Of a DNA stretch of 64,000 nt, positions 6,784 to 62,676 are shown piece by piece. The stretch's first letter is position 1. The number at the start of each line of letters is the position of its first letter. Below the pieces are notes generated by a model. That model did no database searches, was not told where the DNA came from, and saw only the letters and a program-made list of their open reading frames with translations. A program made the translations under genes and the position numbers. Origin of the DNA: Nonlabens xiamenensis (lineage in GTDB: Bacteria; Bacteroidota; Bacteroidia; Flavobacteriales; Flavobacteriaceae); the NCBI RefSeq assembly GCF_003865345.1, contig NZ_RMVE01000001.1, forward strand, positions 558,001 through 622,000, read 5' to 3'.

Positions 6784-7539
6784 TTATTCGACGAAATGCA
6801 AGTTTTTAAAAATTGTGTCTGACGAAGTGAGAATCGACATGTGCCCAGAATTTATAGCTTTAAACCTGCCACCTAGATTAAAACACTCTTTTTCAATAAG
6901 TTGAGCGTTAATTACATTATCCCGACGCCCAGCGATGTAAATAACTGGAAAATCCACATCTCTTAATGAATTCACAAAACTTTCTCTATTGCGCATAGAT
7001 TTCAATGCCTGCAGAATGGTATTTGTTGATAAGTGCAAGGCATTTTCCTTCATGTTTCCTATGCGATCCTCGTACAGTTCCTGCTCCTGAGGTGTAAAAA
7101 GATTACTCACCGCCATACTGATATAAGCCTCCTGATATTTTTGGATCAATTCTATGGATCTGTCTCGCACGATTTTACGTTCGTTTGTGTCAGCGCCGGC
7201 CATGCTGTTGATCAAATGAAGTGATAAGACTTTAGTTGGGTTCGCTTTCGCGAAAGCGGAACATACATATCCACCCATACTGTGACCCATCAAATGACAG
7301 GTGTGGATGTTTTCTTTTTTTAATATGGCATCTAACTCTTCCGCCAGTTCCTCTAAACTATATTCATGAGTAAATTCACCAGATTGTCCGTGACCAGGTA
7401 AATCAATGCTCAGGATATCAAATGTTGATGCAAGCAAAGGACTTAAGAACCGCCACTGTTTCATACTGCCCAGAAACCCATGAATCAGGACCAAGGTTGG
7501 CTTGCCAGTATTTATATATTGATAATGAAGTCTGGTCAT
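6784..7539 (-). CDS. Alpha/beta hydrolase (MenH/BioH-like fold)
   Basis: Cytoplasmic serine hydrolase of 251 residues. The oxyanion region is LVLIHGFLGSMKQW, followed by SIDLPGHGQS, the nucleophile elbow GHSMGG with Ser87, Asp207 in AGRRDNVI and His233 in NSGHMS, a complete triad. Substrate is not predictable: MenH-like synthases and general esterases share this layout. Residues 95-99 (AFAKA) are encoded by the repeated palindrome CGCTTTCGCGAAAGCG. A TACCTTTG promoter ends 4 bases before the ATG. Confidence 0.9.
   Translation of the reverse strand: MTRLHYQYINTGKPTLVLIHGFLGSMKQWRFLSPLLASTFDILSIDLPGHGQSGEFTHEYSLEELAEELDAILKKENIHTCHLMGHSMGGYVCSAFAKANPTKVLSLHLINSMAGADTNERKIVRDRSIELIQKYQEAYISMAVSNLFTPQEQELYEDRIGNMKENALHLSTNTILQALKSMRNRESFVNSLRDVDFPVIYIAGRRDNVINAQLIEKECFNLGGRFKAINSGHMSILTSSDTIFKNLHFVE
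7243..7258. repeat. Palindromic repeat copy 1 (16 bp, perfect)
   Basis: CGCTTTCGCGAAAGCG inside the minus-strand hydrolase gene, read as AFAKA just after the nucleophile helix. Confidence 0.9.
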
Positions 7540-7543
7540 GCTG

Positions 7544-7551
7544 CAAAGGTA
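7544..7551 (-). promoter_or_regulatory. Predicted promoter -7 element of the hydrolase gene
   Basis: On the minus strand TACCTTTG lies 4 bases upstream of the ATG at 7537-7539, a perfect TAnnTTTG match. It implies a leaderless mRNA. Confidence 0.55.
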
Positions 7552-7644
7552 CTGTGGTCACGCCAAAACAGTTTATCACAAAAGTATCACAAGTCCCAAA
7601 ATTTGGTTAAATTGGGCGCATTCCTTTCAAGACTACAGTTACTG

Positions 7645-8994: not shown

Positions 8995-9117
8995 TGCTGT
9001 CATTTATGAAAACTGTGATCAATTAAACTATAACAACAGGCTTTCAACACAAACTATCTCATAATTACCGCGATTAAGGATATTCATAGAAGTCTGCAAC
9101 AAATACCTGTAAAGGAT

Positions 9118-9125
9118 TACTTTTG
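9118..9125 (+). promoter_or_regulatory. Predicted promoter -7 element of the EEP-family gene
   Basis: TACTTTTG matches TAnnTTTG and lies 14 bases before the GTG at 9140. It helps to exclude a start farther upstream. Confidence 0.45.
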
Positions 9126-9139
9126 ATAAATTTTTTTTG

Positions 9140-13338: not shown

Positions 13339-16122
13339 ATGAAATTAAAAAGCTTTCTTGAGTCCGTTTTGGACGATCTGAATAACAAAGGAGTAGACCC
13401 AATTCAATGCCGGTACGTTGTACCTTCCAGAAGAGTAGGGGTATTTCTATCTAGATATCTTGCCGTCGGCATCGACTGTCCAGTTTTCATGCCTGAGATT
13501 TTAAGTGTAGAAGAATATATTGAGCAATGTGCAGGAGCTGAGATTTGGACAGACCTGGATCTTATGCCTGTGTTTTATGAGGCGTATTGCGAAGTCGAAC
13601 ATGACAATGAAAACAGGGACAAATTTGATGCGTTTTTAACATGGGCGCCCACTATCCTCAAGGACTTTAATGAAATCGATCGATATCTGGTGGATCCAGA
13701 TGTGTTTTTCAATTTTTTGGGTAATGTGAAGGAACTTGAGCAGTGGCATTGGTCTCTTGATAACAATCCTACCCAAATGGTCAGCCAGTACCTTGATTTC
13801 TGGAAAAGATTGCGCTTTTATTACGATAAGTTGGCCATTAAGTGTGCGGAAAGCAAAATAGCCTATCAGGGACTAGCTTATCGCTGGGCTGCCCACGCTA
13901 TCTTGAATTCACAAGCTCAACTGGCCCATAAAAATCCTTCAAGTCCCAAAGCCGATAAAGTTAAAGCTCATCAAGGAAAACTTGTGTTTCTAGGGCTCAA
14001 TGCATTAAATGCAGCCGAATCCCAAATCATCCAGCATTTATTAGAACAAGAAAAAGCTGTCATTTACTGGGATGTTGATGAGTACCTATTGGAACGCCCG
14101 TATCATGAAGCCAGTCACTTTATCAGAGGCTTTCAAAAAGAATGGAAATATTATGAATCTCATCCCTTGGAGATTATTGGAAATGGTTTTAAGCAGGAAA
14201 AAAATATAGAGATCCATGGAGCTACAGGTCATTTAGGGATGGTTCAGGTAGCTGCACAGCTCTTGTCATCTATAAGTGAGGAACAACTGAAAAGCACGGC
14301 TGTTATACTGGCCGATGAAACACTGCTGTTACCACTACTAAATGCCATTCCACCTAATATCATCCATTTTAATGTGACCATGGGATTGGCGGCAGATCAG
14401 TTGCCTATTGCTTCCTTTGTCAACGACTTGATTCAGTTGCACGTCGCGCGAACTGAAAAAGGCTTTTACTATAGGGATTTAGTTAGAGTTCTTGAATCTA
14501 CCAGCGCTCAACACCTTATGGGCAATCAGGCAGCTCAGTGTATCAAAACCATCAAGACACAAAACCTCATCTATATCAATCATCAGCAGCCAACCCTGTC
14601 AGACGCTGCTATGTTAGGCCATATTTTACAACCCATAGATCAAGTACTCGAGTTGATCTTTTTACTTGAAAATCTGCTGGGCAACTTAAAATCAACATTA
14701 TCAGTCGCACCTGGTAAGGCACTTGAAATTGAACAGTTGCTTGCCGTTACTGAGGTGGTCCAGCAAATGAAAGAACTCATTATTCAACAGACCGAAATTA
14801 AAGACCTTCGCACACTTGGATTCTTATTTCGCCAATTGTTATCCATGAAAAGTCTGGACTTTATTGGAGAACCAGTGCAGGGACTGCAAATCATGGGTCT
14901 GCTAGAAACCAGGGCGCTGGATTATGAGCATATCATTATGTTATCAGTGAATGAGGGCGTTTTACCCACAGGAAAAACTACCTCTTCCTACATACCGCAT
15001 GATATGAAATACAAATTTGGTCTACCCACCTATTCTGAAAAGGATAGTGTTTATGCCTATCACTTTTATAGACTGCTGCACCGTACAACAAAGGCTAGCT
15101 TTATCTATAATGCAGAACCAGGAAGATTGGGCGGTGGTGAAAAAAGCCGCTTTCTCACCCAGCTGCAAACAGATGATCATACCCTGCACCAGATCAGCAG
15201 TAGCATCTATAGCTACAAAAACCAAATGCTACATGAGACGTGGATTGAGATTCAAAAGGACGAAGCATATTTTAATAGATTGAATACGATTGCAGAAAAT
15301 GGCTTTAGTCCATCTGCAATTTCGTCTTACGTGCGGAACCCAATTGACTTTTATGCCAGCAAGATTCTTAAGATTCCTGAGCTTGAAGAAGTGGAAGAAA
15401 ATATCGCTGCCAACACCATGGGCTCGATAATTCATGAGGCATTAGAACGGTTATACCGCCCCATCAAAGGACAAGTACTGACTGAGGAGCATTTTGTGCT
15501 AATGAAAAAGGAGATGCCAGTAATTCTCAGGCAATCCTATGATAAATGCTATGCGTCGCTGGAGCATGCAGTGGGAAAAAACAAAATTATTTTTGAAGTC
15601 TCGCTACATTATGTACGCAAAATGCTGGATATGGATCTTGAGCTTGTCAAAAAAGGCCATGAACTCATCATAAAAGATGTTGAGCTTCATTTGGAAAGTA
15701 GTTTGGAGGTACCCGAGCACGGTAAAGTTAAGCTACATGGTCATGTCGATCGCATAGATTTGTTGGATGGACAATTGCGCATCATCGATTATAAATCTGG
15801 TGCAGTGGAAAAGGCACAGGTCGGTCTAGAAAACGAAGAACTTGATATATTGATGGAGGATTACGCAAAGTCCAAAGCCTTCCAGGTACTCATGTACACA
15901 TACCTTTATAGCAAAAATGAAGATTTTGACAACGCGAGCTCGGGCATCATTAGCTTTAAAAGGTTTGCCCAAGGATACCTTCCATTTGCCATTAAATCTG
16001 GTCGCGGTTATAAAGAACGACTGATCGATCAGGGGATATTAGAATCCTTTGAAGCTTTACTGATCAAGATTATCCAAGAATTATTTGATCCCAGTATATC
16101 ACTAAAAGAAAAGGAAGTATGA
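13339..16122 (+). CDS. PD-(D/E)XK nuclease-family protein, AddB-like
   Basis: A 927-residue protein with an inactivated helicase-like N-terminal part (YVVPSRRVGVFLSRYLA near residue 28) and a C-terminal RecB-type nuclease. Nuclease residues are His699 in GSIIHEALERLY, Asp804 in HGHVDRID, and Asp817 and Lys819 in IIDYKSG. This matches AddB, the partner of AddA in double-strand-break end processing. The position equivalent to the first Fe-S cysteine (YxxCPF) reads YVRNPIDFY, so the iron-sulfur staple appears absent. No addA neighbour lies in the window. The gene overlaps the next one by 4 bases (ATGA). Confidence 0.87.
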   Translation: MKLKSFLESVLDDLNNKGVDPIQCRYVVPSRRVGVFLSRYLAVGIDCPVFMPEILSVEEYIEQCAGAEIWTDLDLMPVFYEAYCEVEHDNENRDKFDAFLTWAPTILKDFNEIDRYLVDPDVFFNFLGNVKELEQWHWSLDNNPTQMVSQYLDFWKRLRFYYDKLAIKCAESKIAYQGLAYRWAAHAILNSQAQLAHKNPSSPKADKVKAHQGKLVFLGLNALNAAESQIIQHLLEQEKAVIYWDVDEYLLERPYHEASHFIRGFQKEWKYYESHPLEIIGNGFKQEKNIEIHGATGHLGMVQVAAQLLSSISEEQLKSTAVILADETLLLPLLNAIPPNIIHFNVTMGLAADQLPIASFVNDLIQLHVARTEKGFYYRDLVRVLESTSAQHLMGNQAAQCIKTIKTQNLIYINHQQPTLSDAAMLGHILQPIDQVLELIFLLENLLGNLKSTLSVAPGKALEIEQLLAVTEVVQQMKELIIQQTEIKDLRTLGFLFRQLLSMKSLDFIGEPVQGLQIMGLLETRALDYEHIIMLSVNEGVLPTGKTTSSYIPHDMKYKFGLPTYSEKDSVYAYHFYRLLHRTTKASFIYNAEPGRLGGGEKSRFLTQLQTDDHTLHQISSSIYSYKNQMLHETWIEIQKDEAYFNRLNTIAENGFSPSAISSYVRNPIDFYASKILKIPELEEVEENIAANTMGSIIHEALERLYRPIKGQVLTEEHFVLMKKEMPVILRQSYDKCYASLEHAVGKNKIIFEVSLHYVRKMLDMDLELVKKGHELIIKDVELHLESSLEVPEHGKVKLHGHVDRIDLLDGQLRIIDYKSGAVEKAQVGLENEELDILMEDYAKSKAFQVLMYTYLYSKNEDFDNASSGIISFKRFAQGYLPFAIKSGRGYKERLIDQGILESFEALLIKIIQELFDPSISLKEKEV

Positions 16123-16952
16123 TCACGACAGAACAAGCTATAGTAAAAGGAGAATCCGGAAGAGAAATGCCTGTAGATGTCATGTACGGCCAACTCAGCG
16201 ATGCAATGCCTACCATTTTATTTTGTCACGGGTACAAAGGTTTTAAGGACTGGGGTGCCTGGAATTTGATGGGTCACGCTTTCGCGAAAGCGGGATATCT
16301 CTTCATTAAGTTCAACTATTCCCATAACGGAGGAACTGTGGATGAGCCTATAGATTTTCCTGATCTGCGAGCTTTTGGCCAAAACAACTACAGCATGGAG
16401 GTAAAGGACACTGAACGTATGTTGGAATGGATCAGTTCATCCGATCATCAATTTGATCCTGGAAAAATATGTTTAGTCGGACATTCAAGGGCTGGAGGTA
16501 TCACGACCATTGTAGCGGCCAAAGATAGTCGGGTGGATCAGCTGATCACCCTGGCTGGAGTGGCAGATTATGCGCCCAGATTCCCTCAAGGACAAGACTT
16601 AGAGCAATGGAAAAGTCAAGGGGTGTATTATGTTAAGAATGGTCGTACCGGACAAGAGATGCCCCATGAATACCAATTTTTTGAGGACTTTCAGGAAAAC
16701 AGACAGGAATTGAACATACTGAGGCAAGCAGCTCACTTAAAAATACCGCATTTGATCTTTCATGGTATGGATGATGAAACGGTAGATGTATCAGAGGCTT
16801 ATTTGCTGCATTCCAACAGTCCTCAATCACAGTTATCATTGATGAGACGTGCCGGACATACCTTTGGTGCTTCCCATCCTTGGGACCAATCATTGATGCC
16901 CGAGGCCTTAAGACAGGTAGTTCAATGCAGTATTAATTTTATGAAATCCTAG
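16119..16952 (+). CDS. Alpha/beta hydrolase (dienelactone-hydrolase-like)
   Basis: Cytoplasmic 277-residue hydrolase with ILFCHGYKGFKDWG (oxyanion loop), the nucleophile elbow GHSRAGG (Ser123), GMDDETVDV (acid) and RAGHTFGASHPW (His). Residues 54-58 (AFAKA) come from the repeated palindrome. The start ATG overlaps the TGA of the AddB-like gene, which points to translational coupling, although the two functions look unrelated. Substrate unknown. Peptidase, esterase and acyl-transfer roles are all possible. Confidence 0.88.
   Translation: MITTEQAIVKGESGREMPVDVMYGQLSDAMPTILFCHGYKGFKDWGAWNLMGHAFAKAGYLFIKFNYSHNGGTVDEPIDFPDLRAFGQNNYSMEVKDTERMLEWISSSDHQFDPGKICLVGHSRAGGITTIVAAKDSRVDQLITLAGVADYAPRFPQGQDLEQWKSQGVYYVKNGRTGQEMPHEYQFFEDFQENRQELNILRQAAHLKIPHLIFHGMDDETVDVSEAYLLHSNSPQSQLSLMRRAGHTFGASHPWDQSLMPEALRQVVQCSINFMKS
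16277..16292. repeat. Palindromic repeat copy 2 (16 bp, perfect)
   Basis: CGCTTTCGCGAAAGCG within the hydrolase gene, read as AFAKA after MGH. Confidence 0.9.
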
Positions 16953-20705: not shown

Positions 20706-23045
20706 TTATTCAAAATTCACATATATACGAGTGTCGTGGCCGTCTTCATCCATGGCCGTGATCAACCTTCGACCTTTTTTACCCTTAATGGCTAATTCAT
20801 GAAAGTTTTTGGTGGTTCCCAGATATTCATCATCCATATACCAATATACCGAATGTTCTGGCGAAATATGGGCCAGCTTAAAAACCACCTTGTTATCCTT
20901 TCCTTCTACGTTTTTCGTCAGCGGAATACTCGTATTATGCATGGGTTGAATGAATTTCATTACCACCTGCTCCCCTGGAGTGCAATCTGCCCGATATTCA
21001 GGTAGTTTTTTATAATCCGGATGTGTTCTGGAATAATAATAGGACATTACAGCGGGTAGGACAAACCAGGGTTCATTTTGAATCTTCCCCAATGGCTCGC
21101 AATCAGCATTTACCTGAAATTCTCCTGAGGCATCCAAATGTATTTTTTTATGATACGGGCAAGGAGTAAACTTGGAGCCTACTGAGGGAATCCATTGCTT
21201 TTCTATCGGACAGATCGGACTGGCCAGATGACCCGATTGCTGACAGATATCGGCTTGTATCATATCATCGTATGGTGGATCAAACCATTTTGTGGTAGGC
21301 AGCCTGTTGAATAAGTCAAATAAGATGGGTGCTGCGCTGCCGATCCCAGTCATTTCTGCCCTACCTTCTCCATCTGCATTTCCGGTCCAAACTCCGATCA
21401 CATAGTCTGGAGTCACACCGATTGCCCAGGCATCTCGATTCCCAAAACTTGTTCCAGTTTTCCAAGCAATGTCCCGATCTGGATGAAAGAAGTGCCAAAC
21501 CTCCTCTCCAGCGGGTCGATTCACCTTTTTCATCGCTTCAAAACTGTGATAAATACTACCAGCTCCATAGATAGTAGGTTCCGCAGACCATGTTACTTCC
21601 GGTTTTTTATTGTTTAATCTATAGGATAGGTGGTCCATGATCTCAGGGTCATATTGGCTGCTATAAGTAGTGTAGTCCTGTAGCGTATTGGCCATAGCCA
21701 TATAAGCACGACTCATATCCCACAGGCTGCTTTCTCCACCACCTATGATAAGGCTTAGCCCATAAACTCCTGGGCCTCGATCAATATCACGCAATTGAAG
21801 CGTTTGTAATTTGTTATAAAATCTGGGAACACTGTGCTGCCTTAACATACGCACGGCCGGAACATTAAGCGATCGAGCCAAGGCTTGCGATGCGGGTACT
21901 GCTCCCTGATAGGTACGGTCATAATTTTCTGTGCTGAAACCGTCAATGACCGTGGGGATGTCTCTCACTAAGGTATGCGGGAGTAATTCGCCATGATCAA
22001 GCATGTTGGCATAAAGTAATGGCTTGAGTACACTACCTGTACTGCGAGGGGCTGTAATGATATCTACATCCTTTTGGTGATCGCTGGTGGTTGGTGCATT
22101 TCCGACATAGGCGGCTACAGACCTTTCTTTAACATTCAGGACCAGCATGGCGACATTGTTCACACCGTTTTGTTGCAAGATGGCATGATGATTAGCTACA
22201 ATGCTATTGACTTGCTCTTGCATCTGGTGGTCGATACTGGTACGCATCTTGGTTGAGCCATGTTCCTTTAAAACACGTTGAAGCAAATGTGGAGCAAGTT
22301 GAGGAACCTTAAAATCTTTGGTGGGCATCTCTTCAGAAATGGCCAGTTCATAATCCATAGCGGTTAAAATACCCTCTTGATGCATTTTTAAAAGCAGTTG
22401 ATCACGTTTGTCTTTCAAATCACTTTCTCTTCTTCCTGGATAGATCAGTCCAGGAGCATTGGGTAAAACAGCCAGGACAGCACTTTCAGCCCAACTCAGT
22501 TCGTGAGGTTTTCTTCCAAAATACCTCCAGGCCGCCATCTCCAGCCCTACCACATTCCCTCCATAAGGTGCGTGTGAAGCATAAAGTTCAAGGATTTCTT
22601 TTTTGGATAGTTTCCATTCCAAACGGGTAGCCCAGATCAATTCGATAAATTTTTCGGTATAAGTTCGATCACGCTTTCGCGAAAGACGAATAACCTGTTG
22701 GGTAATGGTACTCCCACCACGCACCACTTCTCCCGCCGAAATATTATCTGACATTGCCTTAACAATCGCCACTGGATTAAAGCCTGGGTGCTCGTAGAAA
22801 TGCGCGTCTTCGTATTGCAGCAAGGCCTGCTCGTATCTGTAGGGAACGCTGTCCACGGCTGGAAAGCGCCACTGGTCATCCTGGGCGATATGGGCATCTA
22901 GAAGTCGGCCATTGCGGCTTTCAATCACCGTGGAATAAGGAGCGTTAAATAATTGCTCCGGTAAGCAGAAGATATACCATACCAATAAAATGGCAGCCAC
23001 CGCCAATTTGATTTTGTGCCGGAACAACAACCGCTTTATACGCAT
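20706..23045 (-). CDS. pbpC: Penicillin-binding protein 1C
   Basis: Bifunctional class A PBP of 779 residues, acting at the cytoplasmic-membrane outer face in peptidoglycan synthesis. One transmembrane helix (about 12-28); a GT51 transglycosylase domain with EDAHFYEHPGFN (catalytic Glu79) and RGGSTITQQVIRL; a transpeptidase domain with RSTGSVLKPLLY (SxxK), ARSLNVPAVR (SxN) and WKTGTSFGNRDAW (KTG); and a C-terminal BiPBP_C-like beta domain. Residues 121-125 (LSRKR), right after the QQV motif, come from a palindromic repeat copy. The alpha-2-macroglobulin gene that often accompanies pbpC is not adjacent. Confidence 0.95.
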   Translation of the reverse strand: MRIKRLLFRHKIKLAVAAILLVWYIFCLPEQLFNAPYSTVIESRNGRLLDAHIAQDDQWRFPAVDSVPYRYEQALLQYEDAHFYEHPGFNPVAIVKAMSDNISAGEVVRGGSTITQQVIRLSRKRDRTYTEKFIELIWATRLEWKLSKKEILELYASHAPYGGNVVGLEMAAWRYFGRKPHELSWAESAVLAVLPNAPGLIYPGRRESDLKDKRDQLLLKMHQEGILTAMDYELAISEEMPTKDFKVPQLAPHLLQRVLKEHGSTKMRTSIDHQMQEQVNSIVANHHAILQQNGVNNVAMLVLNVKERSVAAYVGNAPTTSDHQKDVDIITAPRSTGSVLKPLLYANMLDHGELLPHTLVRDIPTVIDGFSTENYDRTYQGAVPASQALARSLNVPAVRMLRQHSVPRFYNKLQTLQLRDIDRGPGVYGLSLIIGGGESSLWDMSRAYMAMANTLQDYTTYSSQYDPEIMDHLSYRLNNKKPEVTWSAEPTIYGAGSIYHSFEAMKKVNRPAGEEVWHFFHPDRDIAWKTGTSFGNRDAWAIGVTPDYVIGVWTGNADGEGRAEMTGIGSAAPILFDLFNRLPTTKWFDPPYDDMIQADICQQSGHLASPICPIEKQWIPSVGSKFTPCPYHKKIHLDASGEFQVNADCEPLGKIQNEPWFVLPAVMSYYYSRTHPDYKKLPEYRADCTPGEQVVMKFIQPMHNTSIPLTKNVEGKDNKVVFKLAHISPEHSVYWYMDDEYLGTTKNFHELAIKGKKGRRLITAMDEDGHDTRIYVNFE
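22674..22685. repeat. Palindromic repeat copy 3 (12-bp core, one arm degraded)
   Basis: CGCTTTCGCGAAAG followed by A: the 12-bp core is perfect and one outer arm is changed. Within pbpC it is read as LSRKR. Confidence 0.85.
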
Positions 23046-23112: not shown

Positions 23113-23901
23113 TTATGTAACGGTGAATGGGAAAACGATGGACTGGATACGCTTACCTACTGATGCTGATTGGTGATCAAATTTAGGCAGGGATATGCCC
23201 ATTTGTCGGGCCGCCTCCTGATAATAGGATTCCTTTGGCTCGTGTGGAATACTAATTCCGTGAACCAATTTGGGTAATTCCTCTTGATCAATAATTTGTT
23301 TGATCATCTTTATAAGCGCTGATCTTTCTACCAGATTGACAGGAGCATCAGGATTGGAAAGATCCTGACGTCCGGATAAATAAGTGACAGGATGCCTGTT
23401 CCCTCCAATTAAACCGCCTGGCCTGATGATACAATATTGCGCAGTCATCTCTTGGATTACTTCTTCGGCGGCGATCAGTTGTTGAGCATTAGACGAACTA
23501 GCATTGGGCAAGTCTTCTTCAGTGTAAATAGGAAATGCTGCGGTATCCTTAAAAACACTAGTGCTCGAGATAAAGATGGTTTGCGGTATATCATACGCGC
23601 GAGCAAAGCTCATTAACATCTTCATGCGATAGGCAAAGTCACTTGCTGGATTTTGACGTAAACCCGGCGGAATGTCAATCAATAGGATATCCAAGCCTTG
23701 GAGAAAAACCTGAAGATCCCCCAGGATTTTTTTCTCTTGAACATCGATCATGACCGACTGAATTCCCTGTCGCTCCAATGCATCGAGCGTCTGCCTATCT
23801 CTGGACGTGCCTCTTACATCAAATCCTGCTATGGACAATTCAACAGCTAGGGGTTTACCCAACCAACCACAGCCCAGTATGCCAATGGTTTTTTTACTCA
23901 T
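23113..23901 (-). CDS. Rossmann-fold NAD(P)-dependent epimerase-like protein (YeeZ-like)
   Basis: Protein of 262 residues beginning with a nucleotide-binding glycine motif IGILGCGWLGKPLA, then TSRDRQTL (pyrophosphate or ribose contacts), FISSTSVF in the middle and YCIIRPGGLIGGNRHP, typical of atypical short-chain dehydrogenases of the YeeZ group. A usual YxxxK catalytic pair is not evident. It overlaps the upstream M28 peptidase gene by 8 bases and precedes pbpC by 67, so the three form a probable operon. Substrate unknown. Confidence 0.85.
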   Translation of the reverse strand: MSKKTIGILGCGWLGKPLAVELSIAGFDVRGTSRDRQTLDALERQGIQSVMIDVQEKKILGDLQVFLQGLDILLIDIPPGLRQNPASDFAYRMKMLMSFARAYDIPQTIFISSTSVFKDTAAFPIYTEEDLPNASSSNAQQLIAAEEVIQEMTAQYCIIRPGGLIGGNRHPVTYLSGRQDLSNPDAPVNLVERSALIKMIKQIIDQEELPKLVHGISIPHEPKESYYQEAARQMGISLPKFDHQSASVGKRIQSIVFPFTVT

Positions 23902-26290
23902 TTTGTAGAACAGAGTCAGCTGCCATTTCTGGGCGTGAAAGCCTAAGGTAGCGCTTTCTCAACACGGCATCATTCAATACAAACGGCATACTCATTTCGT
24001 CACGGTCTCTTCGGCGCACGTCCAGTTCGCTATGGTTGAACAAGTCAAACGAAGCGGCATAAAATTGAAGTTCTGGTGCTGTTTGGGCATCAAAAACCAA
24101 TTCAAGCTCAAGGGGCTCATTATCTTTGATATAATAACTCAGCATTCTATTGCCATACCTATTGGGGAATGCCTTTCCAGAGTTTTTGTCTTTATAAGCT
24201 GGTTTTCCGTTGACGCTGGCATCCTCAAATTGAAATTCTTCATCAGCAAAAATCTCCAAACGTTGGACGGGACTCTTGCTATGCACCTTCAACACTACCC
24301 GTCGTAGATCCTGATATACCGTATCTATAAGTTTTTGGAGCTCTAATTTTGGCAAGCTGATATATTCAGCGGGAACCGCATAGCTGAATCCGGTTCCGTA
24401 TTTGGAGTCGATGGTGTTTTTATTCAATTGTTCAGCCGTGGTCGGATCTTCACCCAATTTTGATTTGGTCCAATCTCCCAAAGCTCGATCATAGGTGGCC
24501 CATTGGGCCTGTTCCTGGTCCTGATCAACTACATAAACCAGACTGGTAGGTTTGGGTTGTTGTGGGGAGAATTCCGCTTTCGCGAAAGCGAGACCTACAC
24601 AAACAATGGTAATTAACAATGAAATTCCTGCCAGCAGCCCTTTTTTGCGATAATGCCCAAAAATCGGAACGAGCAAACCAAAAAGTAGGGCAGTCAAAAT
24701 AGCTGCAACAAATAATATTTTCATACCCAAAGCCACTGGGAAAGCTTTGATAAACGGGCTGAAAATAAAAATGGCTGGTACTGCCAGCAACACCAATATT
24801 ACATAGCTGGGGCGTTTTTTGTAAATATTAAGCCAGAGCATGAGCAAGCCCGCAAATAATGGAATGACAAAAAAACCTGCTCCTGGAAGGAATACATTGG
24901 GGATCAGGCCACCTTCACCAACGGGAAAAGCGATCAGTAAGCAAATGAGCCACAGTACAATTAATGGAGCTACACTTAGGCTGGCTATGCGATCGCGATG
25001 ATAAAACTTGTGATATAAATAAAAGGAAACACTCAGGGACATAAATACCGCACAAGCGATTAACCAATATCCATTGTACGGAAAACCATGCACCTGATCT
25101 ATATAAAAGTCGGTTTGTGCGATCATTTTCCAGGCATAATAGGGAAGTACAAACCCCAGCACCAGACTGCCCAAAAATGGAATGAATCCGCCAAAAAGGT
25201 GTTTGAGTTGGATGCGATTTTTCTTTACCCCTAAAACGATGAGGAACAACAAGGTTAAACCTGCAACAATGATGAGCGCAGCCAGCCATGAAAAAGGAAA
25301 GGTCATCATTTTCACCAAGGGCATGGGGAAATAAACCAGATCATCTCCCTTGTCCACTTTGAGATCCGATTGCATGTCAATGGATGAAAAATGCGACAAT
25401 AGGGGCATCAGATAAGCGCCTTGATGTGCCAAGGTGTTGCGGTCCAAACGTTCATAGTTATCCAGCTCTGTATGGTAATCATAATGATCTCCTATAAATG
25501 CAAAATTAAGTCCGTTGATATCGCCGTCTTCTCTAAACACGGTAAGATCAGTATCGTTGGGAATCATTTGATAAATACTGTAGGCCAGCGAATTGGCGAC
25601 GGGGTAATCCACTCCTGCAACACTAAATTCCTCTATGATTTTGCGGTTCCCACCATTAGTTTCTACCAACATATAACTGGGGCCACCACTCCCACGGGCT
25701 TCAAAATTGAGTACGAGAGAAACATCCTTGGCCCAGGGATGTTGATTAACAAAGAGTTCAGCACCGTTTAAACCCAGTTCTTCGGCATCGGTAATACAAA
25801 TGATAATGTCGTTTTCTGGGGTTTGATTTTGTGCTAGATAAGCCCTCACACCCTCTAGAATGGTGGCTACGCCGCTGCCTGCATCACTAGCGCCATAGCT
25901 AGAATGCGGATCGCTGTCATAATGGCTTAGCAACAATAAAGCATTCTCGTTGGACCTGGACCCTTTGATCCGCGCCAAAATATTCGTGGGTCGGGCCATG
26001 TTTCCCCAGCGATCCAGGGTAGTGCCTTCTTGCAATTCAGTCTTCAGCCCCATTTCTTCCAGGGTTTGCACAATATAGTCCCTGACCTTGTCATGGGCTG
26101 TACTGCCTACGAAATGAGGTTCCTGGGAGATGGCTTGCACGTGCTCTAGGGCACGTGCCGTGGACCATTGGGTTTTGGGTACGTCCTGCTTGACCTTTGA
26201 AGATGGTGTCTGACTATAAAAGGCATACCAAACCATTATAATTATAGCAAGAAATGAAATGGCCGAGGTAAAATGGGATTTGGGCCTCAT
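23894..26290 (-). CDS. M28-family membrane metallopeptidase
   Basis: Zinc aminopeptidase-like protein of 798 residues with an N-terminal membrane anchor (about 10-25), an M28 domain (about 60-310), and roughly eight or nine hydrophobic helices (about 330-580) before a C-terminal soluble domain. Metal-site motifs are LLLSHYDSDPHSSYGASDAGSG (His, Asp), ITDAEELGLNGAE (Glu pair), NFEARGSGG and a final DHYDYHTELDN. The ATG at 26288-26290 is chosen because it directly precedes the anchor; the frame is open further to 26395. Architecture resembles the vacuolar membrane protease type. An AFAKA segment in the membrane part is palindrome-encoded. Confidence 0.9.
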   Translation of the reverse strand: MRPKSHFTSAISFLAIIIMVWYAFYSQTPSSKVKQDVPKTQWSTARALEHVQAISQEPHFVGSTAHDKVRDYIVQTLEEMGLKTELQEGTTLDRWGNMARPTNILARIKGSRSNENALLLLSHYDSDPHSSYGASDAGSGVATILEGVRAYLAQNQTPENDIIICITDAEELGLNGAELFVNQHPWAKDVSLVLNFEARGSGGPSYMLVETNGGNRKIIEEFSVAGVDYPVANSLAYSIYQMIPNDTDLTVFREDGDINGLNFAFIGDHYDYHTELDNYERLDRNTLAHQGAYLMPLLSHFSSIDMQSDLKVDKGDDLVYFPMPLVKMMTFPFSWLAALIIVAGLTLLFLIVLGVKKNRIQLKHLFGGFIPFLGSLVLGFVLPYYAWKMIAQTDFYIDQVHGFPYNGYWLIACAVFMSLSVSFYLYHKFYHRDRIASLSVAPLIVLWLICLLIAFPVGEGGLIPNVFLPGAGFFVIPLFAGLLMLWLNIYKKRPSYVILVLLAVPAIFIFSPFIKAFPVALGMKILFVAAILTALLFGLLVPIFGHYRKKGLLAGISLLITIVCVGLAFAKAEFSPQQPKPTSLVYVVDQDQEQAQWATYDRALGDWTKSKLGEDPTTAEQLNKNTIDSKYGTGFSYAVPAEYISLPKLELQKLIDTVYQDLRRVVLKVHSKSPVQRLEIFADEEFQFEDASVNGKPAYKDKNSGKAFPNRYGNRMLSYYIKDNEPLELELVFDAQTAPELQFYAASFDLFNHSELDVRRRDRDEMSMPFVLNDAVLRKRYLRLSRPEMAADSVLQNE
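24575..24590. repeat. Palindromic repeat copy 4 (16 bp, perfect)
   Basis: CGCTTTCGCGAAAGCG in the minus-strand M28 peptidase gene, read as AFAKA at the end of the last hydrophobic helix. Confidence 0.9.
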
Positions 26291-26466
26291 GGTTGTTATT
26301 TTAGATAGGCGAAAGTTACTAAATTTATAGGTTGGCTGCTTCTTTGTTCGATCCTGATCTTGGCGAGAAAAATGATTATACATCCGTATTGACATGTTCA
26401 GAGAGCGCTAGTGGATGTCTTCCAATATTTTGCCTGCTCTGGTATAGGTTTCTCTAGGGGAAATAC

Positions 26467-26474
26467 TACCTTTG
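26467..26474 (+). promoter_or_regulatory. Predicted promoter -7 element of the flavin reductase-like gene
   Basis: TACCTTTG matches TAnnTTTG, 20 bases before the GTG at 26495. It lies inside the longer open frame that begins at 26411, so the true start must be downstream of it. Confidence 0.5.
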
Positions 26475-26494
26475 AAATCTTATTTGTGAGACCT

Positions 26495-49027: not shown

Positions 49028-49753
49028 TTATTTAAATGAGCTTTCTTTGCCGGCTAATCTTTTGAGTTCGTCGCTAGGTATACGGGATTTATTATAGCCT
49101 TTCATTGCTACTATTCTCATGGCCCGCGCAATGGTGGTAGGAGAAATACTGCGGTACTTGCGTAAGGGACCGATCAATAATGGGTCGATGATCACTTGAA
49201 CTTTTTTCCATAAAGATTCAAATATCCGTGTTTCCTCTCGATTACCGCTGATCAATGCAGGCTGGACAAAATAGCAATGGTTGAACCCCAAGGACTCCAA
49301 GTCGCGCTCCATTTCTCCTTTTCCGCGGTTGTAACTGAATCTACTCTGTGGATCGGCACCCAATGCGCTGATGGCCACGAGCCTTGATACGCCATTGGAT
49401 CTCGCAGTCTGAGCTACAGTAAGTGGAAGGTCATGTTCTATGCGATAATATTCCTCTGGATCTGGCGTTTTGGCCTGGGTTGTTCCTGTACAAATAAATA
49501 AATGATCCCCTTTGAGATATTCCTGATAGGTCTCGGCATCAAAAAGGTCTACTTCATAATTGTCATGTGGTGTAGTAAGCGAGGGTTGGTTGCTCTGCAG
49601 GTCCCCATTGCCTGGCCTTATGTCTTGAGTCTTTTTTATACGCTTTCGCGAAAGCGATATTACTCGCTCATAATCGCCGCTGGACAATAATTGTTGCAGC
49701 AAATGGCTTCCACAAAGTCCTGTGGCTCCAATAATAATTCCAATTGGTTTCAA
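49028..49753 (-). CDS. NAD(P)-binding oxidoreductase (HTATIP2-like)
   Basis: Atypical short-chain dehydrogenase of 241 residues. The Rossmann glycine motif is IGIIIGATGLCGSHLL, followed by LISLSRK-type ribose/phosphate contacts (here VISLSRKRIKKT), HLFICTGTTQAKT and VSRLVAISALGADPQSRFSYNRGKGEME, in which the catalytic-like Tyr and Lys of YxxxK are seen. The segment SLSRKR is encoded by a palindromic repeat. Substrate unknown. Confidence 0.87.
   Translation of the reverse strand: MKPIGIIIGATGLCGSHLLQQLLSSGDYERVISLSRKRIKKTQDIRPGNGDLQSNQPSLTTPHDNYEVDLFDAETYQEYLKGDHLFICTGTTQAKTPDPEEYYRIEHDLPLTVAQTARSNGVSRLVAISALGADPQSRFSYNRGKGEMERDLESLGFNHCYFVQPALISGNREETRIFESLWKKVQVIIDPLLIGPLRKYRSISPTTIARAMRIVAMKGYNKSRIPSDELKRLAGKESSFK
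49641..49656. repeat. Palindromic repeat copy 8 (16 bp, perfect)
   Basis: CGCTTTCGCGAAAGCG near the 5' end of the NAD(P)-binding gene, read as LSRKR. Confidence 0.9.
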
Positions 49754-49792: not shown

Positions 49793-50884
49793 ATGGAAAT
49801 GCTGGACGAACGTAAGATCATTCATGTGGACATGGATGCTTTTTATGCATCGGTGGAGCAACGGGATGCACCAGAATTAAAGGGTCTGCCCATTGCGGTA
49901 GGAGGGAGCAGTGACCGAGGAGTAGTAGCGGCCGCCAGTTATGAAGCCCGCAAGTATGGTGTGCGCAGTGCAATGCCTAGTGTTACAGCAAAACGACTTT
50001 GCCCTGAATTGATCTTTGTGAAGTCGAGGTTTGACAGGTACCGCGAGGTCTCCCAACACATCAGGGAAATTTTTTACGACTATACCGATCTGGTGGAACC
50101 GCTTTCCCTGGATGAAGCCTATCTGGATGTGACCAACAACAAATACAATTTCCCCAGTGCTACCATAATTGCCTATGACATACGCCGGCGCATTTATGAA
50201 GCTACTGGTCTCACCGCCAGTGCCGGAATATCCATCAATAAATTTGTTGCCAAAATTGCCAGCGATTACAACAAACCCAATGGTCAGAAAACCATCGTGC
50301 CAGAAGAAGTGACTGAATTTTTGGAACAACTGGAAATCCGTAAATTCTACGGTATAGGGAAAGTGACCGCAGAAAAAATGTTCCAACATGGCATCTTTAC
50401 TGGTCAGGATCTCAAAAGAAAATCCTTAGAGTACCTGATCCAACATTTTGGGAAAAGCGGTGCTCATTATTACAAGATCGTGCGCGGGATCCATAAAAGT
50501 CCAGTTCGGCCGGATCGCATCAGAAAATCCTTAGGCGCCGAACGCACCTTTTCAGAAAATATCTCTAGCGAACTCTTTATGAAGGAACGTTTGGTGCAAA
50601 TTGCCGAAGAGATTGAAAAACGCATTGCCAAAACTGATGTGGCGGGTAAAACCGTAACCCTAAAAATCAAATACCGGGACTTTAAAACCCAAACCCGCAG
50701 CAAAACACTGGATCATTATATCCGGGACAAAGACTTGATTCTATCCACGGCCATCGAGCTTATGGAACAGGAGGGATTTCGCGAAAGCGTGCGCTTGCTC
50801 GGGATCACTTTGAGCAATCTCAATACCCAAAAAGATGAAAGTTCCCAAGATTCTGTTGAAGTTCAACTGGGTTTTTCCTTTTAA
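49793..50884 (+). CDS. dinB: DNA polymerase IV (Y family)
   Basis: Error-prone translesion polymerase of 363 residues. Catalytic acids are in IIHVDMDAFYASVEQ (Asp13) and PLSLDEAYLDVT (Asp-Glu pair). The finger-palm and little-finger order is conserved, and the C-terminal end VEVQLGFSF resembles a beta-clamp-binding peptide (QLGF). Translation could start at ATG 49793 or 49799. The codons for FRESV near residue 330 fall on a degenerate copy of the palindrome. Confidence 0.94.
   Translation: MEMLDERKIIHVDMDAFYASVEQRDAPELKGLPIAVGGSSDRGVVAAASYEARKYGVRSAMPSVTAKRLCPELIFVKSRFDRYREVSQHIREIFYDYTDLVEPLSLDEAYLDVTNNKYNFPSATIIAYDIRRRIYEATGLTASAGISINKFVAKIASDYNKPNGQKTIVPEEVTEFLEQLEIRKFYGIGKVTAEKMFQHGIFTGQDLKRKSLEYLIQHFGKSGAHYYKIVRGIHKSPVRPDRIRKSLGAERTFSENISSELFMKERLVQIAEEIEKRIAKTDVAGKTVTLKIKYRDFKTQTRSKTLDHYIRDKDLILSTAIELMEQEGFRESVRLLGITLSNLNTQKDESSQDSVEVQLGFSF
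50777..50789. repeat. Palindromic repeat copy 9 (10-bp core plus one arm)
   Basis: TTTCGCGAAAGCG with the left arm changed (A for C), in dinB and read as FRES. Confidence 0.75.
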
Positions 50885-56015: not shown

Positions 56016-56579
56016 ATGAAGAAAATTACCATCATGGCCAGCGGTTCAGGGACGAATGCCCAGGCCATCATTGATCATTTTGCCACCTCTGGTCTTGCCC
56101 GTGTAAATCTGGTATTGTCCAATAAGTCCACAGCACAGGTTTTGGAAAGGGCAACCCGCGCAGGTATTCCTGCACTCTCTTTTAATAGGTCCGCTTTCGC
56201 GAAAGCGGGACCCGTTTCAAATTTGCTCAAACAGGAACAACCCGATCTGATCGTTTTGGCCGGTTTCCTCTGGAAAATCCCAGATTACCTGATCCAACAA
56301 TTTCCCCAAAAAATCATTAATATTCATCCATCCTTGTTACCTAAATATGGCGGTAAGGGTATGTACGGTCATCATGTACATGAAGCGGTGATCGCTCAAG
56401 GCGAAAAGGAAAGCGGTATCAGTATACATTACGTCAATGAAGCTTATGATGAGGGGGCGATCATTCAACAAGTAAGTTGTCCAGTACAAACTGAGGATAC
56501 CGCAGCAGACCTGGCCCAACGCATCCAACAACTAGAGCACGAGCATTTTCCCAACATTATTGAAGGATTACTCCATTAA
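56016..56579 (+). CDS. purN: Phosphoribosylglycinamide formyltransferase
   Basis: Third purine-synthesis step, transferring formyl from 10-formyl-THF to GAR. The 187 residues hold ITIMASGSGTNAQAIIDHF (substrate phosphate), LIVLAGFLWKIP, INIHPSLLPKYGG with the catalytic Asn-x-His pair, and later VNEAYDEGAIIQQ with the catalytic Asp. Near residue 63 AFAKA is palindrome-encoded. It is divergent from acpP, and the RNase H gene begins 1 base after its stop. Confidence 0.96.
   Translation: MKKITIMASGSGTNAQAIIDHFATSGLARVNLVLSNKSTAQVLERATRAGIPALSFNRSAFAKAGPVSNLLKQEQPDLIVLAGFLWKIPDYLIQQFPQKIINIHPSLLPKYGGKGMYGHHVHEAVIAQGEKESGISIHYVNEAYDEGAIIQQVSCPVQTEDTAADLAQRIQQLEHEHFPNIIEGLLH
56191..56208. repeat. 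Palindromic repeat copy 10 (18 bp, perfect)
   Basis: CCGCTTTCGCGAAAGCGG in purN, read as AFAKA in a loop between NRS and GPVSN. Confidence 0.92.
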
Positions 56580-56580
56580 T

Positions 56581-59553: not shown

Positions 59554-59562
59554 AAACACCCA

Positions 59563-60150: not shown

Positions 60151-60162
60151 CTTATTCAAAAT

Positions 60163-60179: not shown

Positions 60180-60408
60180 GAGCTATACCATTGCACATTT
60201 ACGTAGGGGAGAAACAGCGATCATCAAGCAGTTTAACGAGATTGATGTACCGCTTAAATTGCTGGAAATGGGTTGTTTACCGGGTAACCAGGTGACCATG
60301 ATGCAATCCGCGCCTTTCAGGGATCCGATTTATCTGGACATCAACGGTACACACCTGGCCATACGCAGGGAAACAGCACAAAAAATTATCGTGGAGCCTT
60401 ATGGGTAA
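60178..60408 (+). CDS. feoA: Ferrous iron transport protein A
   Basis: SH3-like accessory protein of 76 residues for FeoB-mediated Fe(II) uptake. Motifs: LRRGETAIIKQFN, LLEMGCLPGNQVTMM and IYLDINGTHLAIRRETAQKI, the usual FeoA pattern. The start is the TTG at 60178, since a TAA lies two codons upstream and the next ATG is too far in. It overlaps feoB by 8 bases. Confidence 0.92.
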   Translation: MSYTIAHLRRGETAIIKQFNEIDVPLKLLEMGCLPGNQVTMMQSAPFRDPIYLDINGTHLAIRRETAQKIIVEPYG

Positions 60409-62521
60409 ATCCATTAACGTATCGCTGATCGGTAATCCCAACACCGGTAAAACTTCTTTGTTCAACCGTTTGACCGGTTTGAATCAGAAAGTAGGGAACT
60501 ATCCAGGAATCACCGTTGAAAAAAAGGAAGGAATTTGCAAACTGGACCGTGGTCTCAAAGCCCATATCCTGGACTTGCCAGGGACTTATAGTTTAAATAC
60601 TACTTCGCTGGACGAAAGCATCGTTGTGGAAACTTTGCTCAATAAAAATTCAAAGGACTTTCCCGATGTAGCTGTGGTGGTTTCTGATATTGAAAATCTG
60701 AAGCGCAACCTGCTGGTTTTCACCCAGATCAAAGACCTGGAAATCCCAACTATTCTGGTAATTAATATGGCCGATCGCATGGAACGCAAGGCCATTTCCC
60801 TGGATATTGACCAGATGGAACAGGAACTTAATACCAGGATCGTCTTGGTCAGCGCTAGACGTAATCAAGGGATCCAAGAGCTCAAAGAAGCGATCACTGA
60901 CTATAAAAAACTGACTTCTACACCATGCGTGAATGCCTCGGTGATCGATACGGAATATTTTGAATCCCTGCGCAACACCTACCCCAACCAGCTGGTCTAC
61001 AAACTTTGGTTGGTGATCACCCAAGATGTGAATTTTGGGAAGTTGGAGCGTAACCGCGAACTCGAGGATTTAAAAAAACACAAGTTTGAAGTTAAGTCTG
61101 AGTCTGACCTTAAACGCATGCAGCACAAGGAAACGGTGGTGCGTTATCAATTCATCAACGGTTTGCTTAAAAAAGTGCTCAAGGTAGATGTGGCCAATGC
61201 CAAAGACCTGCGTACCCGACTGGATCGCGTGCTACTGCATAAAGTTTGGGGCTATCTGATCTTTTTTGTCATCCTATTTGTGATTTTCCAGGCGATTTAT
61301 GATTGGAGTACTTATCCCATGGACTGGATTGACGAGGCTTTTGCTCACCTGAGTAGTTATGTAAGTGATGTCTTGCCCGCTGGTCCGTTGACGAGTCTAT
61401 TGTCTGAAGGTATTATTTCAGGCTTGGGTGGTATAGTGATTTTTATCCCGCAAATTGCCTTTCTGTTTTTGTTTATTGCCATTCTTGAAGAAAGCGGTTA
61501 TATGAGCAGGGTGGTATTTTTAATGGACCACATCATGAAAAGATTTGGCCTGAGTGGGAAGAGCGTGGTTCCCTTAGTTTCTGGAACTGCTTGTGCCATT
61601 CCCGCTGTCATGGCCACACGTAACATAGAGGACTGGAAGGAGCGCCTGATCACTATATTAGTAATTCCGTTTACCACCTGTTCGGCGCGTTTACCGGTCT
61701 ATCTGATCATTATATCATTAGTGATACCAGACCAGCGTATTTTGGGTGGAGCGGTCAATCTTCAAGGACTCACCTTGATGTTGTTGTACTTGTTGGGATT
61801 TGGAACCGCTATTTTTTCAGCTTGGGTATTGAATAAGGTATTACCGCTTCAGCGAAAGGCGTTTTTTGTCATGGAAATGCCAGCTTACAAACTTCCCATG
61901 TTCAAAAATGTTGTGATTACCGTAGTTGAAAAGACCAAAAGTTTTGTACTGGGTGCGGGAAAAATCATCATGGCCATTTCTATCGTATTGTGGGTATTGG
62001 CGAGCTATGGGTTGGGCGATCAATTTACCCAGGCCGAAGAGATTGTCACTGAACAATATGCTGGTCAAGGACTGACAGAACAAGAGTTGGATCAAAAAAT
62101 CGCTTCTCACCAGCTAGAATATAGTTTTATAGGATATATCGGTAAAGGAATCGAGCCTGCGGTGCGCCCCTTGGGTTATGATTGGAAAATAGGTATCGCC
62201 ATTTTGAGTTCGTTTGCAGCCCGTGAGGTGTTTGTGGGAACACTGGCGACCATTTACAGTGTGGAAAGTGATGGCGGTGACGAGCAGACCATTAAAAAGC
62301 GCATGGCCGCTGAACAAAATCCGATTTTGGGCGGACCATTGTTTAATTTTGCCAGTGGTATTTCCTTGCTGTTGTTCTATGCTTTTGCCATGCAGTGCAT
62401 GAGTACGCTGGCCATTGTTAAAAGAGAAACTAACGGCTGGAAGTGGCCAGCACTTCAATTTTTCTTTATGACTGCCATCGCTTATTTTGCTGCCTTGGGA
62501 GCCTTTCAATTATTGAAATAA
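60401..62521 (+). CDS. feoB: Ferrous iron transporter B
   Basis: Fe(II) transporter of 706 residues in the cytoplasmic membrane. The N-terminal GTPase domain has GNPNTGKTSLFN (G1, 11-22), DLPGTYSLN (G3), and INMADRME (G4). The membrane part has about ten helices with the two Gate-like halves: FLFLFIAILEESGYMSRVVF and VVPLVSGTACAIPAVMATR, later AAREVFVGTL. It shares its last base with the start of the small Cys-rich gene. Confidence 0.96.
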   Translation: MGKSINVSLIGNPNTGKTSLFNRLTGLNQKVGNYPGITVEKKEGICKLDRGLKAHILDLPGTYSLNTTSLDESIVVETLLNKNSKDFPDVAVVVSDIENLKRNLLVFTQIKDLEIPTILVINMADRMERKAISLDIDQMEQELNTRIVLVSARRNQGIQELKEAITDYKKLTSTPCVNASVIDTEYFESLRNTYPNQLVYKLWLVITQDVNFGKLERNRELEDLKKHKFEVKSESDLKRMQHKETVVRYQFINGLLKKVLKVDVANAKDLRTRLDRVLLHKVWGYLIFFVILFVIFQAIYDWSTYPMDWIDEAFAHLSSYVSDVLPAGPLTSLLSEGIISGLGGIVIFIPQIAFLFLFIAILEESGYMSRVVFLMDHIMKRFGLSGKSVVPLVSGTACAIPAVMATRNIEDWKERLITILVIPFTTCSARLPVYLIIISLVIPDQRILGGAVNLQGLTLMLLYLLGFGTAIFSAWVLNKVLPLQRKAFFVMEMPAYKLPMFKNVVITVVEKTKSFVLGAGKIIMAISIVLWVLASYGLGDQFTQAEEIVTEQYAGQGLTEQELDQKIASHQLEYSFIGYIGKGIEPAVRPLGYDWKIGIAILSSFAAREVFVGTLATIYSVESDGGDEQTIKKRMAAEQNPILGGPLFNFASGISLLLFYAFAMQCMSTLAIVKRETNGWKWPALQFFFMTAIAYFAALGAFQLLK

Positions 62522-62649
62522 TGTATCTACTTCAATACATCATCGTCGGAATCTTGGTATTGGCAGCCTTGGGCTGGCTGCTCCGCAAATGGCTTTTCCC
62601 TACAAAATTCAATTCGTCTTGTGGCGATGGAGATTGTGGCTGTCACTAA
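62521..62649 (+). CDS. FeoB-associated Cys-rich membrane protein
   Basis: Tiny protein of 42 residues: a transmembrane helix (about 5-21, QYIIVGILVLAALGWLL), a basic stretch (RKWLFPTKF), and a Cys-rich tail SSCGDGDCGCH that could bind iron. Such proteins follow feoB in many Bacteroidota and are grouped as FeoB-associated Cys-rich membrane proteins, FeoC-like in position only. The ATG starts on the last base of the feoB stop codon, so translation is probably coupled. Confidence 0.87.
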   Translation: MYLLQYIIVGILVLAALGWLLRKWLFPTKFNSSCGDGDCGCH

Positions 62650-62662
62650 TTGGGTGTGGTAC

Positions 62663-62676
62663 GCTTTCGCGAAAGC
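62663..62676. repeat. Palindromic repeat copy 11 (14 bp, intergenic)
   Basis: GCTTTCGCGAAAGC, the only copy outside a gene, 14 bases after the stop of the Cys-rich gene and 44 bases before the murI ATG. Confidence 0.9.

Follow-up and report, generated by a model that had tools for sequence, protein, structure and literature searches.

The window analysed here, a 64,000-nucleotide stretch of Nonlabens xiamenensis, corresponds to positions 558001-622000 of contig C5 (the home contig) of a 3.68-Mb genome and carries eleven copies of a palindrome with the core TTTCGCGAAA, which reads GCTTTCGCGAAAGC as a 14-mer and CGCTTTCGCGAAAGCG as a 16-mer. Over 100 dinucleotide shuffles the core occurs with a mean of 0.09 and a maximum of 1, and the 11 places that lie within three mismatches of the 16-mer compare with an expectation of 0.10. 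Eight copies are exact 16-mers, one further copy is an exact 14-mer and two are incomplete on one side; the palindrome has no strand, and the signs given below refer to the open reading frames (ORFs), which were called mechanically. The exact 16-mers lie at 7243-7258 in an alpha/beta-hydrolase ORF (6784-7539, -), at 16277-16292 in a second alpha/beta-hydrolase ORF (16119-16952, +), at 24575-24590 in an M28 peptidase ORF (23894-26395, -), at 27229-27244 close to the end of a flavin-reductase ORF (26411-27346, +), at 33415-33430 in an S9 peptidase ORF (31550-34429, +), at 40251-40266 close to the start of an X-Pro dipeptidyl-peptidase (S15) ORF (40210-42117, +), at 49641-49656 in an NAD-dependent epimerase-like ORF (49028-49753, -) and at 56192-56207 in a formyltransferase ORF (56016-56579, +). 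The copy at 22672-22687, in a penicillin-binding protein 1C-like ORF (20706-23045, -), is incomplete on the right and has 2 mismatches to the 16-mer, and the copy at 50774-50789, in the ORF of a Y-family polymerase of the DinB type (49793-50884, +), is incomplete on the left, with 13 bp left. The eleventh, at 62662-62677, is the exact 14-mer, in which the last base of the 16-mer differs, and it is the only one located between ORFs (60401-62521, + and 62721-63506, +).

An earlier sequence-only reading of the window had reported eleven copies sharing the core, nine of them in the 14-16 bp form, and three stop-free readings of the palindrome; all of this is borne out. Its start coordinates were right to within four bases: 33411 should read 33415, while 22674, 50777, 56191 and 62663 become 22672, 50774, 56192 and 62662 in the frame of the 16-mer. 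The division into ten genic copies and one intergenic copy also stands, and the ten genes do encode different proteins, though two of these are both alpha/beta-hydrolases. The copies at 49641-49656 and 50774-50789 are separated by just 1.13 kb; the latter may reflect chance codon choice instead of a full site, since it is incomplete on the left and lies within conserved polymerase residues.

The abundance seen in the window extends to the whole genus. The complete genome contains 553 exact 14-mers and no copy of the reversed control word, and each of the 22 congeners searched (Nonlabens, Flavobacteriaceae) contains 288-857 copies, which corresponds to ~1 per 4-9 kb, or about 115-250 per Mb. 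Base composition is rejected as the cause, since the reversed control word has 0 copies in all 23 Nonlabens. Base-level statistics were obtained from 860 kb of the home contig and from 1.2 Mb of the 3.19-Mb genome of a congener, G004. In the former, 142 exact 14-mers are found, compared with 0.001-0.004 expected from Markov models of word sizes 2-5, and even word size 6, which already contains the motif's own words, expects 0.27. A perfect palindrome far above Markov expectation, as in the highly iterated palindromes (HIP) of cyanobacteria, is thus present, and a count near that expectation, which the sequence-only reading had set down as fatal to its proposal, did not occur (142 vs about 0.003). 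The statement that copies lie mostly inside genes is true of the window and needs correction on the larger scale: 30 of the 142 copies (21%) fall outside ORFs of at least 100 aa, compared with about 10% for random 14-mers, so that intergenic copies are twofold enriched. The coding copies use all three frames (59, 30 and 23).

Outside Nonlabens, the 14-mer is present in 11 of 125 genomes, with 17, 6, 6, 3, 3 and 2 copies and five single ones. In a drawn set of 295 other Bacteroidota, which overlaps the first, 15 genomes have a match, with at most 4 copies each, and the reversed control word occurs as a single copy in about a dozen. The count in the whole genome and in related genera that had been called for therefore gives 553 copies here, several hundred in every congener and 0-17 in other Bacteroidota. 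Since the word is abundant in 23 of 23 Nonlabens and reaches no more than 17 copies elsewhere, its reader should be findable by gene-content comparison. The few copies in other genera form single stretches in G033 (C18), G042 (C1:729029-757694), G075 (C4:221218-275387) and G275 (C1:311231-326922), which may be DNA acquired from Nonlabens; the palindrome could act as a tracer of such transfer into other genera. In the draft genome G072, 16 of the 17 copies are confined to two contigs, C6 and C98, probably contaminating Nonlabens contigs. The six copies of G063 are scattered, and the two of G057 lie on two contigs. No palindrome-like dialect was detected in 57 loci from other genera (L033-L089), where the 11-mers repeated at least four times are mostly A+T-rich words; some 11-mer words recur in L049 and L082. 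A single TTTCGCGAAA core without the 14-mer is present in each of 11 of these loci, mostly from Flavobacterium (L049, L055, L057, L058, L063, L065, L067, L073, L075, L085 and L087), perhaps at one shared gene position.

The comparison of orthologous sites indicates how copies arise. It covers 13 columns of coding sites from the window and 20 congener regions, ortholog groups with fewer than four records being dropped. Among the 147 cells of these columns, 64 contain the exact motif, 45 are non-carriers that align ungapped, 10 are gapped and 28 lack the stretch; 25 of the last fall in three columns in which the site is close to the ORF start. The ungapped non-carriers comprise 17 cells with one or two mismatches, 19 with three to six and 9 with more. 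The exact motif is found in at least half of the records in 5 of the 13 columns, while carriers agree at 62% of bases (484 comparisons) in 14-base blocks that start 30 bases to either side of the site start. Differences between orthologs arise mostly by base substitution, and sites are kept while their flanks diverge. Spread by nucleotide substitution, which is reportedly also the way in which HIP1 propagates, is thus observed here.

Individual sites illustrate the same behavior. The M28 site (24575) holds the palindrome in 17 of 20 congeners in codon alignments, the epimerase site (49641) holds the TTTCGCGAAA core in 11 of 13, the other two being one single mismatch and one record cut off within the site, and the formyltransferase site (56192) holds the core in 6 of 7. 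At the penicillin-binding-protein site (22672) the core is present in only 2 of 13 congeners, and the rest differ by substitution without gaps. At the DinB site (50774), the FRES residues are conserved across the genus, and codon choice yields the motif core in 7 of 17 congeners. Protein conservation is rejected as the cause: the 12 M28 records shown from outside the genus (of 57 fetched) align ungapped and have other residues there, without the motif. Conservation of the AFAKA residues in distant orthologs, the second outcome that the sequence-only reading had named as fatal, was likewise not encountered, as these 12 M28 records and 5 DinB records from outside the genus are devoid of the motif residues. 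Insertion is possible at a second penicillin-binding-protein site, which falls within a linker whose length varies greatly.

The last case bears on another proposal of the sequence-only reading, a mobile mini-repeat tolerated for its open frames, here taken to include a REP-like element propagating by insertion. Such an element would account for hundreds of copies of a perfect inverted repeat, and REP-like elements are indeed present at palindrome sites in some species; the 10 gapped cells and the variable linker agree with it as well. With these exceptions, empty sites shorter by the repeat length were not found: of the 83 non-carrier cells, 45 are ungapped, 10 gapped and 28 without the stretch. 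Copies moreover avoid one another. As most of the non-carrier sites that are present align ungapped, the claim is not supported, and a mini-repeat appears very unlikely.

The word is strict. Copies with 0, 1, 2 and 3 mismatches to the 14-mer number 142, 22, 8 and 43 in the home contig (reversed control 0, 0, 8 and 36) and 292, 29, 17 and 59 in the 1.2 Mb of G004 (reversed control 0, 1, 1 and 68), and the palindrome behaves as one all-or-none unit. Exact and single-mismatch counts of 438/947 for a Pasteurellacean uptake word, 5648/1830 for a 10-mer HIP1 and 1008/8855 for Chi, given in an excerpt of PMC1939737, allow only a rough comparison, since the word lengths differ. In both genomes the most frequent single-mismatch form carries C in place of T at the fifth base (9 of 22 in the home contig, 10 of 29 in G004). 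This top near-miss, GCTTCCGCGAAAGC, is common to two distant species and may be a second, tolerated version of the word and not a product of decay. When the motif is masked, no inner palindromic core is enriched (TCGCGA 60 vs 72.5, TTCGCGAA 3 vs 3.5, CGCG 936 vs 1256), and a methylated inner core is rejected on these counts. Longer one-sided words are mildly in excess after masking (CTTTCGC 35 vs 20.7, CTTTCGCG 14 vs 7.4), as unmasked near-miss copies would leave.

The masked counts also weigh on a HIP1-like origin, in which the word would be made and kept by a DNA methyltransferase together with biased mismatch repair. Palindromy, high copy number and gain by substitution are consistent with this origin, and Elhai's model, as outlined in part of PMC4390886, could with its reach of about 1 kb give rise to the mutual exclusion of sites described below. 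The C5 methylase family PF00145 is present in 14 of 23 Nonlabens; it is absent from the genome studied here and from 8 other Nonlabens at least 93% complete (N6 and N4 methylases were not searched). A recognition word of 14 bp would, furthermore, be unusual for a methyltransferase. With 9 of 23 Nonlabens lacking PF00145 and no inner core enriched, the methylation site envisaged by the sequence-only reading is not supported in its HIP-type C5 form, and we consider a HIP1-like origin improbable.

Outside the core, the sequence is G+T-rich over ~20 nt to the 5' side on either strand, with both strands counted. At 3-5, 6-9, 10-14 and 15-19 nt, the 5' G+T fraction amounts to 0.69, 0.67, 0.66 and 0.56 in the home contig (142 sites) and to 0.72, 0.69, 0.72 and 0.60 in G004 (290 sites), and past 30 nt it is 0.50-0.55 and 0.52, respectively. 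The words TTGT, GTTG and TGTT are 2.7- to 3-fold enriched in the home-contig flanks. By our reasoning, the core has no direction, and coding bias should therefore average out rather than cause this asymmetry. Flanks of this kind resemble the recombinase-preferred islands around Chi in E. coli. The flanks also inform on a possible role at the RNA level, where a transcript could fold as CGCTTT-CGCG-AAAGCG and serve as a terminator, processing or decay element. Mirror positions in the flanks do not covary consistently, isolated positions or bins deviating with both signs, which gives no support for a longer hairpin; the 3' flank is rich in A+C instead of U, and all three frames as well as intergenic places are used. 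An RNA hairpin is accordingly extremely unlikely.

The spacing of the sites departs clearly from randomness. On the home contig, the 141 gaps (mean 5950) have a coefficient of variation of 0.548, compared with 0.986 for random placement, and none of 2000 simulations gave a value as low. No gap is shorter than 1 kb, where 21.4 are expected, and the pair correlation starts from 0 within the first kilobase, reaches 0.30 between 1 and 2 kb and ranges over 0.77-1.16 at larger distances. For G004, the pair correlation in 500-base bins up to 2 kb is 0, 0.20, 0.36 and 0.74, followed by patternless values of 0.71-1.37; none of the distances is below 0.5 kb (30 expected) and 7 are below 1 kb (57 expected). 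A rule of one site per ORF is rejected as the cause, since its simulation leaves 11.6 gaps below 1 kb, with a minimum of 3 in 300 runs, and none was seen; two ORFs contain two or more sites. On the larger scale, 60 evenly spread 20-kb windows of G004 contain a mean of 4.87 sites with a variance of 2.76, under the Poisson 2.5% bound of 3.20. The sites repel each other up to about 2 kb and are uniform along the sampled chromosome. The replichore bias that the sequence-only reading had suggested looking for is not apparent in G004: site counts in the 60 windows are uncorrelated with how far a window lies from the G-C skew minimum (Spearman rho -0.01, P 0.93), so no origin-terminus trend is seen, the skew extremes being taken as origin and terminus without other evidence.

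Such placement brings in the main rival to the reading developed below, namely a chromosome-wide repair, recombination or compaction signal that would be bound by a dimer and act over 1-2 kb on either side, in the form of a two-sided Chi-like site, a mismatch-repair strand-discrimination signal or the site of a nucleoid protein. Exclusion would then follow because a second site within reach adds nothing, and the palindromic core with its symmetric flank bias, the exclusion range of 1.5-2 kb and the uniform placement are all consistent with it, as is the Chi-like G+T richness of the flanks. The density of ~1 per 4-9 kb can be set beside the 1008 Chi sites of the 4.64-Mb E. coli genome, and the same excerpted source (PMC1939737) provides a counterargument, as Chi has a large single-mismatch class, 8855 vs 1008 exact, unlike the palindrome. 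The loss of one of more than 500 redundant sites should, in addition, matter little, yet the sites are near-perfect. Segregation or division sites, as a further form of such a signal, are disfavored by the lack of an origin-terminus trend. The ParB family points in the same direction: PF02195 gives one match in 20 of 23 Nonlabens and 2-3 in the other three, and one match in 24 of 26 other genomes, so that Nonlabens have one ParB as in other genera and no genus-wide Noc-like paralog. On both grounds ParB/Noc sites are disfavored. In G015, G018 and G019, extra ParB-domain proteins, with ORFs of about 600-616 aa, are present beside the usual one of ~300 aa. Overall, the chromosome-wide signal is a serious candidate whose truth we nevertheless hold doubtful.

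In several species the palindrome is split by short inserts. The pattern CGCTTTC-N(12-42)-GAAAGCG occurs 39 times in G004, 37 times in G008, 26 times in G015 and 15 times in G005, compared with 0-7 times in the other 19 Nonlabens, and its reversed control gives 0 in 22 genomes and 1 in one. The 39 cases of G004 comprise 36 split motifs and 3 intact motifs with a half-site nearby, and intact cases are also included in the counts of other genomes. The insert is itself a short palindrome, for example CCTGCCTGCCGGTCAGGCAGG, usually placed after CGCTTTCGCG and before AAAGCG; G015 and G005 contain other insert families, mostly at this same asymmetric point between CGCTTTCGCG and AAAGCG. At one intergenic site, a 21-bp insert is present in G004 and G008, while G019 and G020 have the intact motif, without target duplication. 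Insert loci are L176:8210, L177:8201 and L171:13976. The G004 family has 37 distinct cores, one pair of which may be the same sequence on two contigs; flanks were seen for 27, of which 21 lie within the motif or a damaged copy and 6 do not, one of these being beside a left half. In the sampled windows, twelve split sites have 0 intact neighbors within 1 kb vs 5.8 expected and 5 within 2 kb vs 11.7. Y1 transposases were rejected as the insert source, since PF01797 is found in G015 and G005 and is absent from the insert-richest G004 and G008, which rules out a simple link.

Foreign-looking DNA proves poor in the palindrome. As a group, the 7 of 60 G004 windows with at most two sites differ from the others in G+C (P=1e-4), one of them barely. 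Ten ORFs scanned from four of these motif-poor windows revealed an integrase and a relaxase in one, an IS110 transposase in the second, where four more ORFs have its length, a glycosyltransferase in the third and glycoside hydrolases in the fourth, alongside genes of ordinary type, BipA and a histidine kinase among them; Rfam gave no match in the seven windows. One 20-kb window contains five ORFs of 321 aa (L305:6266-19688); the one that was scanned encodes an IS110-type transposase, and the spaces between these ORFs hold two REP-like cores that lie outside the motif. The two related records of the Nonlabens phages P12024S and P12024L, both without annotated integrase, contain not a single copy in 71 kb even when 2 mismatches are allowed, where ~11 would be expected at host density. 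In IMG/VR, the exact 16-mer is found in 41 stretches of 30 contigs, several high-G+C ones of which look like chance. Of the six 16-mers of a 37-kb contig (L200, L217, L220), portal and terminase genes contain two, and the scanned ORFs of this contig include no integrase; a 30.6-kb contig (L188, L212, L219) carries three 16-mers and an integrase. These motif-bearing contigs, of uncertain host and of low to middle G+C, were picked out by means of the motif, which biases the density they show. A phage nucleotide search built on the motif returned 26 records, with E of at least 0.9 where listed, and none was flavobacterial by organism tally.

Collectively, the data fit a word that a dimer recognizes in its entirety and that is maintained by a force with a reach of 1-2 kb, and we favor the view of the palindrome as a genus-specific DNA address for a putative Nonlabens protein. 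As for the purpose of the address, our tentative first choice is a signal of self DNA, bound by a dimer and serving most likely in uptake during natural transformation. A homodimer would read the 14-16 bp core as a unit and contact the flanks, the palindrome thereby marking self DNA for transformation. Fragments with one site would be preferentially taken up and then recombined into the chromosome, and this preference would drive new sites until each stretch of ~2 kb has one, a second site close by bringing no gain. The lineage-specific word, the hundreds of copies and the even spacing typical of the uptake signal sequences (USS) and DNA uptake sequences (DUS) are all found here, as is scarcity in newly acquired segments, judged from the G+C-deviant, motif-poor windows of G004. 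Haemophilus uptake sequences, in the excerpted account of PMC7811141, are evenly distributed, have weaker tracts on the flanks of a core and are likewise scarce in such segments. Within the same order, Riemerella columbina is naturally competent and prefers its own DNA in transformation (PMC7965970, in part), and transformation of R. anatipestifer needs proteins unrelated to known machineries, with relatives across the Flavobacteriaceae (PMC8459023, in part). An extended version, held with yet more reserve, is possible: the first palindromic self-DNA signal in Bacteroidota would be dimer-read by an undescribed transformation machinery, a molecular drive with a 2-kb horizon would have written it into proteins throughout the genus, some phages would have adopted it and REP-like elements would land at its center.

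Several observations weigh against an uptake signal. The word is a perfect palindrome, which the uptake sequences (USS and DUS) described in the consulted part of PMC1939737 are not. A word count in Riemerella gave, in the excerpt of PMC7965970, only A+T-rich words, none proven in uptake. Flavobacterium johnsoniae, according to an excerpted source, is not competent under conditions effective for R. columbina, and no transformation of a Nonlabens was found in the openly licensed literature. The type II/IV secretion ATPase PF00437 exceeds the cut-off in 3 of 23 Nonlabens, the genome studied here included, so that the classical type IV pilus route does not extend across the genus. Finally, the palindrome is present in some phage contigs, of which one has an integrase; this counts in favor of the chromosome-wide signal, since a chromosome-maintenance role explains it more directly than uptake does.

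No description of the palindrome was found in openly licensed papers: GCTTTCGCGAAAGC occurs in none, and the papers containing TTTCGCGAAA are off-subject by title. Within that literature, the remark of the sequence-only reading that no function has been described thus stands. A word that fixes protein residues at hundreds of places genus-wide, with few imperfect copies and a clear range of repulsion, is a strong sign of drive or of a strict reader. If the uptake signal is true, sequence-biased transformation would extend to Bacteroidota and to palindromic words; if the repair or chromosome signal is true, the palindrome would be a new genome-wide landmark.

Among known systems, the REP/RAYT elements are in direct contact with the palindrome, as REP-like inserts lie inside it in several species. 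Unlike REP, the palindrome differs between orthologs mostly by substitution, and it is without the size or foot typical of REP. Like the Nonlabens word, parS and Noc sites are palindromic and built of TTTC..GAAA half-sites, between which the Nonlabens palindrome is two bases shorter; unlike parS, Noc, SlmA, MatP and KOPS sites, it shows no origin-terminus trend, no direction and no extra genus-wide ParB member. Chi, which is directional, shares a similar density and a G+T-rich neighborhood. It is an 8-bp word with many near-misses in the excerpt of PMC1939737, whereas the Nonlabens word is palindromic and strict. The resemblance to the USS of Pasteurellaceae and the DUS of Neisseriaceae comprises hundreds of copies, lineage specificity, even spacing, a core with weaker flanks and scarcity in foreign DNA. 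The known USS and DUS are non-palindromic in the part of PMC1939737 consulted, while the Nonlabens word is palindromic with far rarer near-misses, and the Haemophilus uptake word occurs about once per kb (PMC7811141, in part) vs once per 4-9 kb in Nonlabens. With HIP1 and the other cyanobacterial highly iterated palindromes, the Nonlabens word has in common that it is a short perfect palindrome, hugely over-represented, genic, gained by substitution and lineage-bound. HIP1 measures 8 bp and the Nonlabens palindrome 14-16 bp, and the density of about 115-250 per Mb compares with 300-2700 per Mb for HIP (PMC4390886, in part). Unlike HIP1, the palindrome has no enriched inner core and no C5 methylase (PF00145) in its own genome. 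The likeness to HIP1 as a highly iterated palindrome, drawn already in the sequence-only reading, nonetheless holds, and either reading, uptake signal or chromosome signal, bears on why HIP1 exists.

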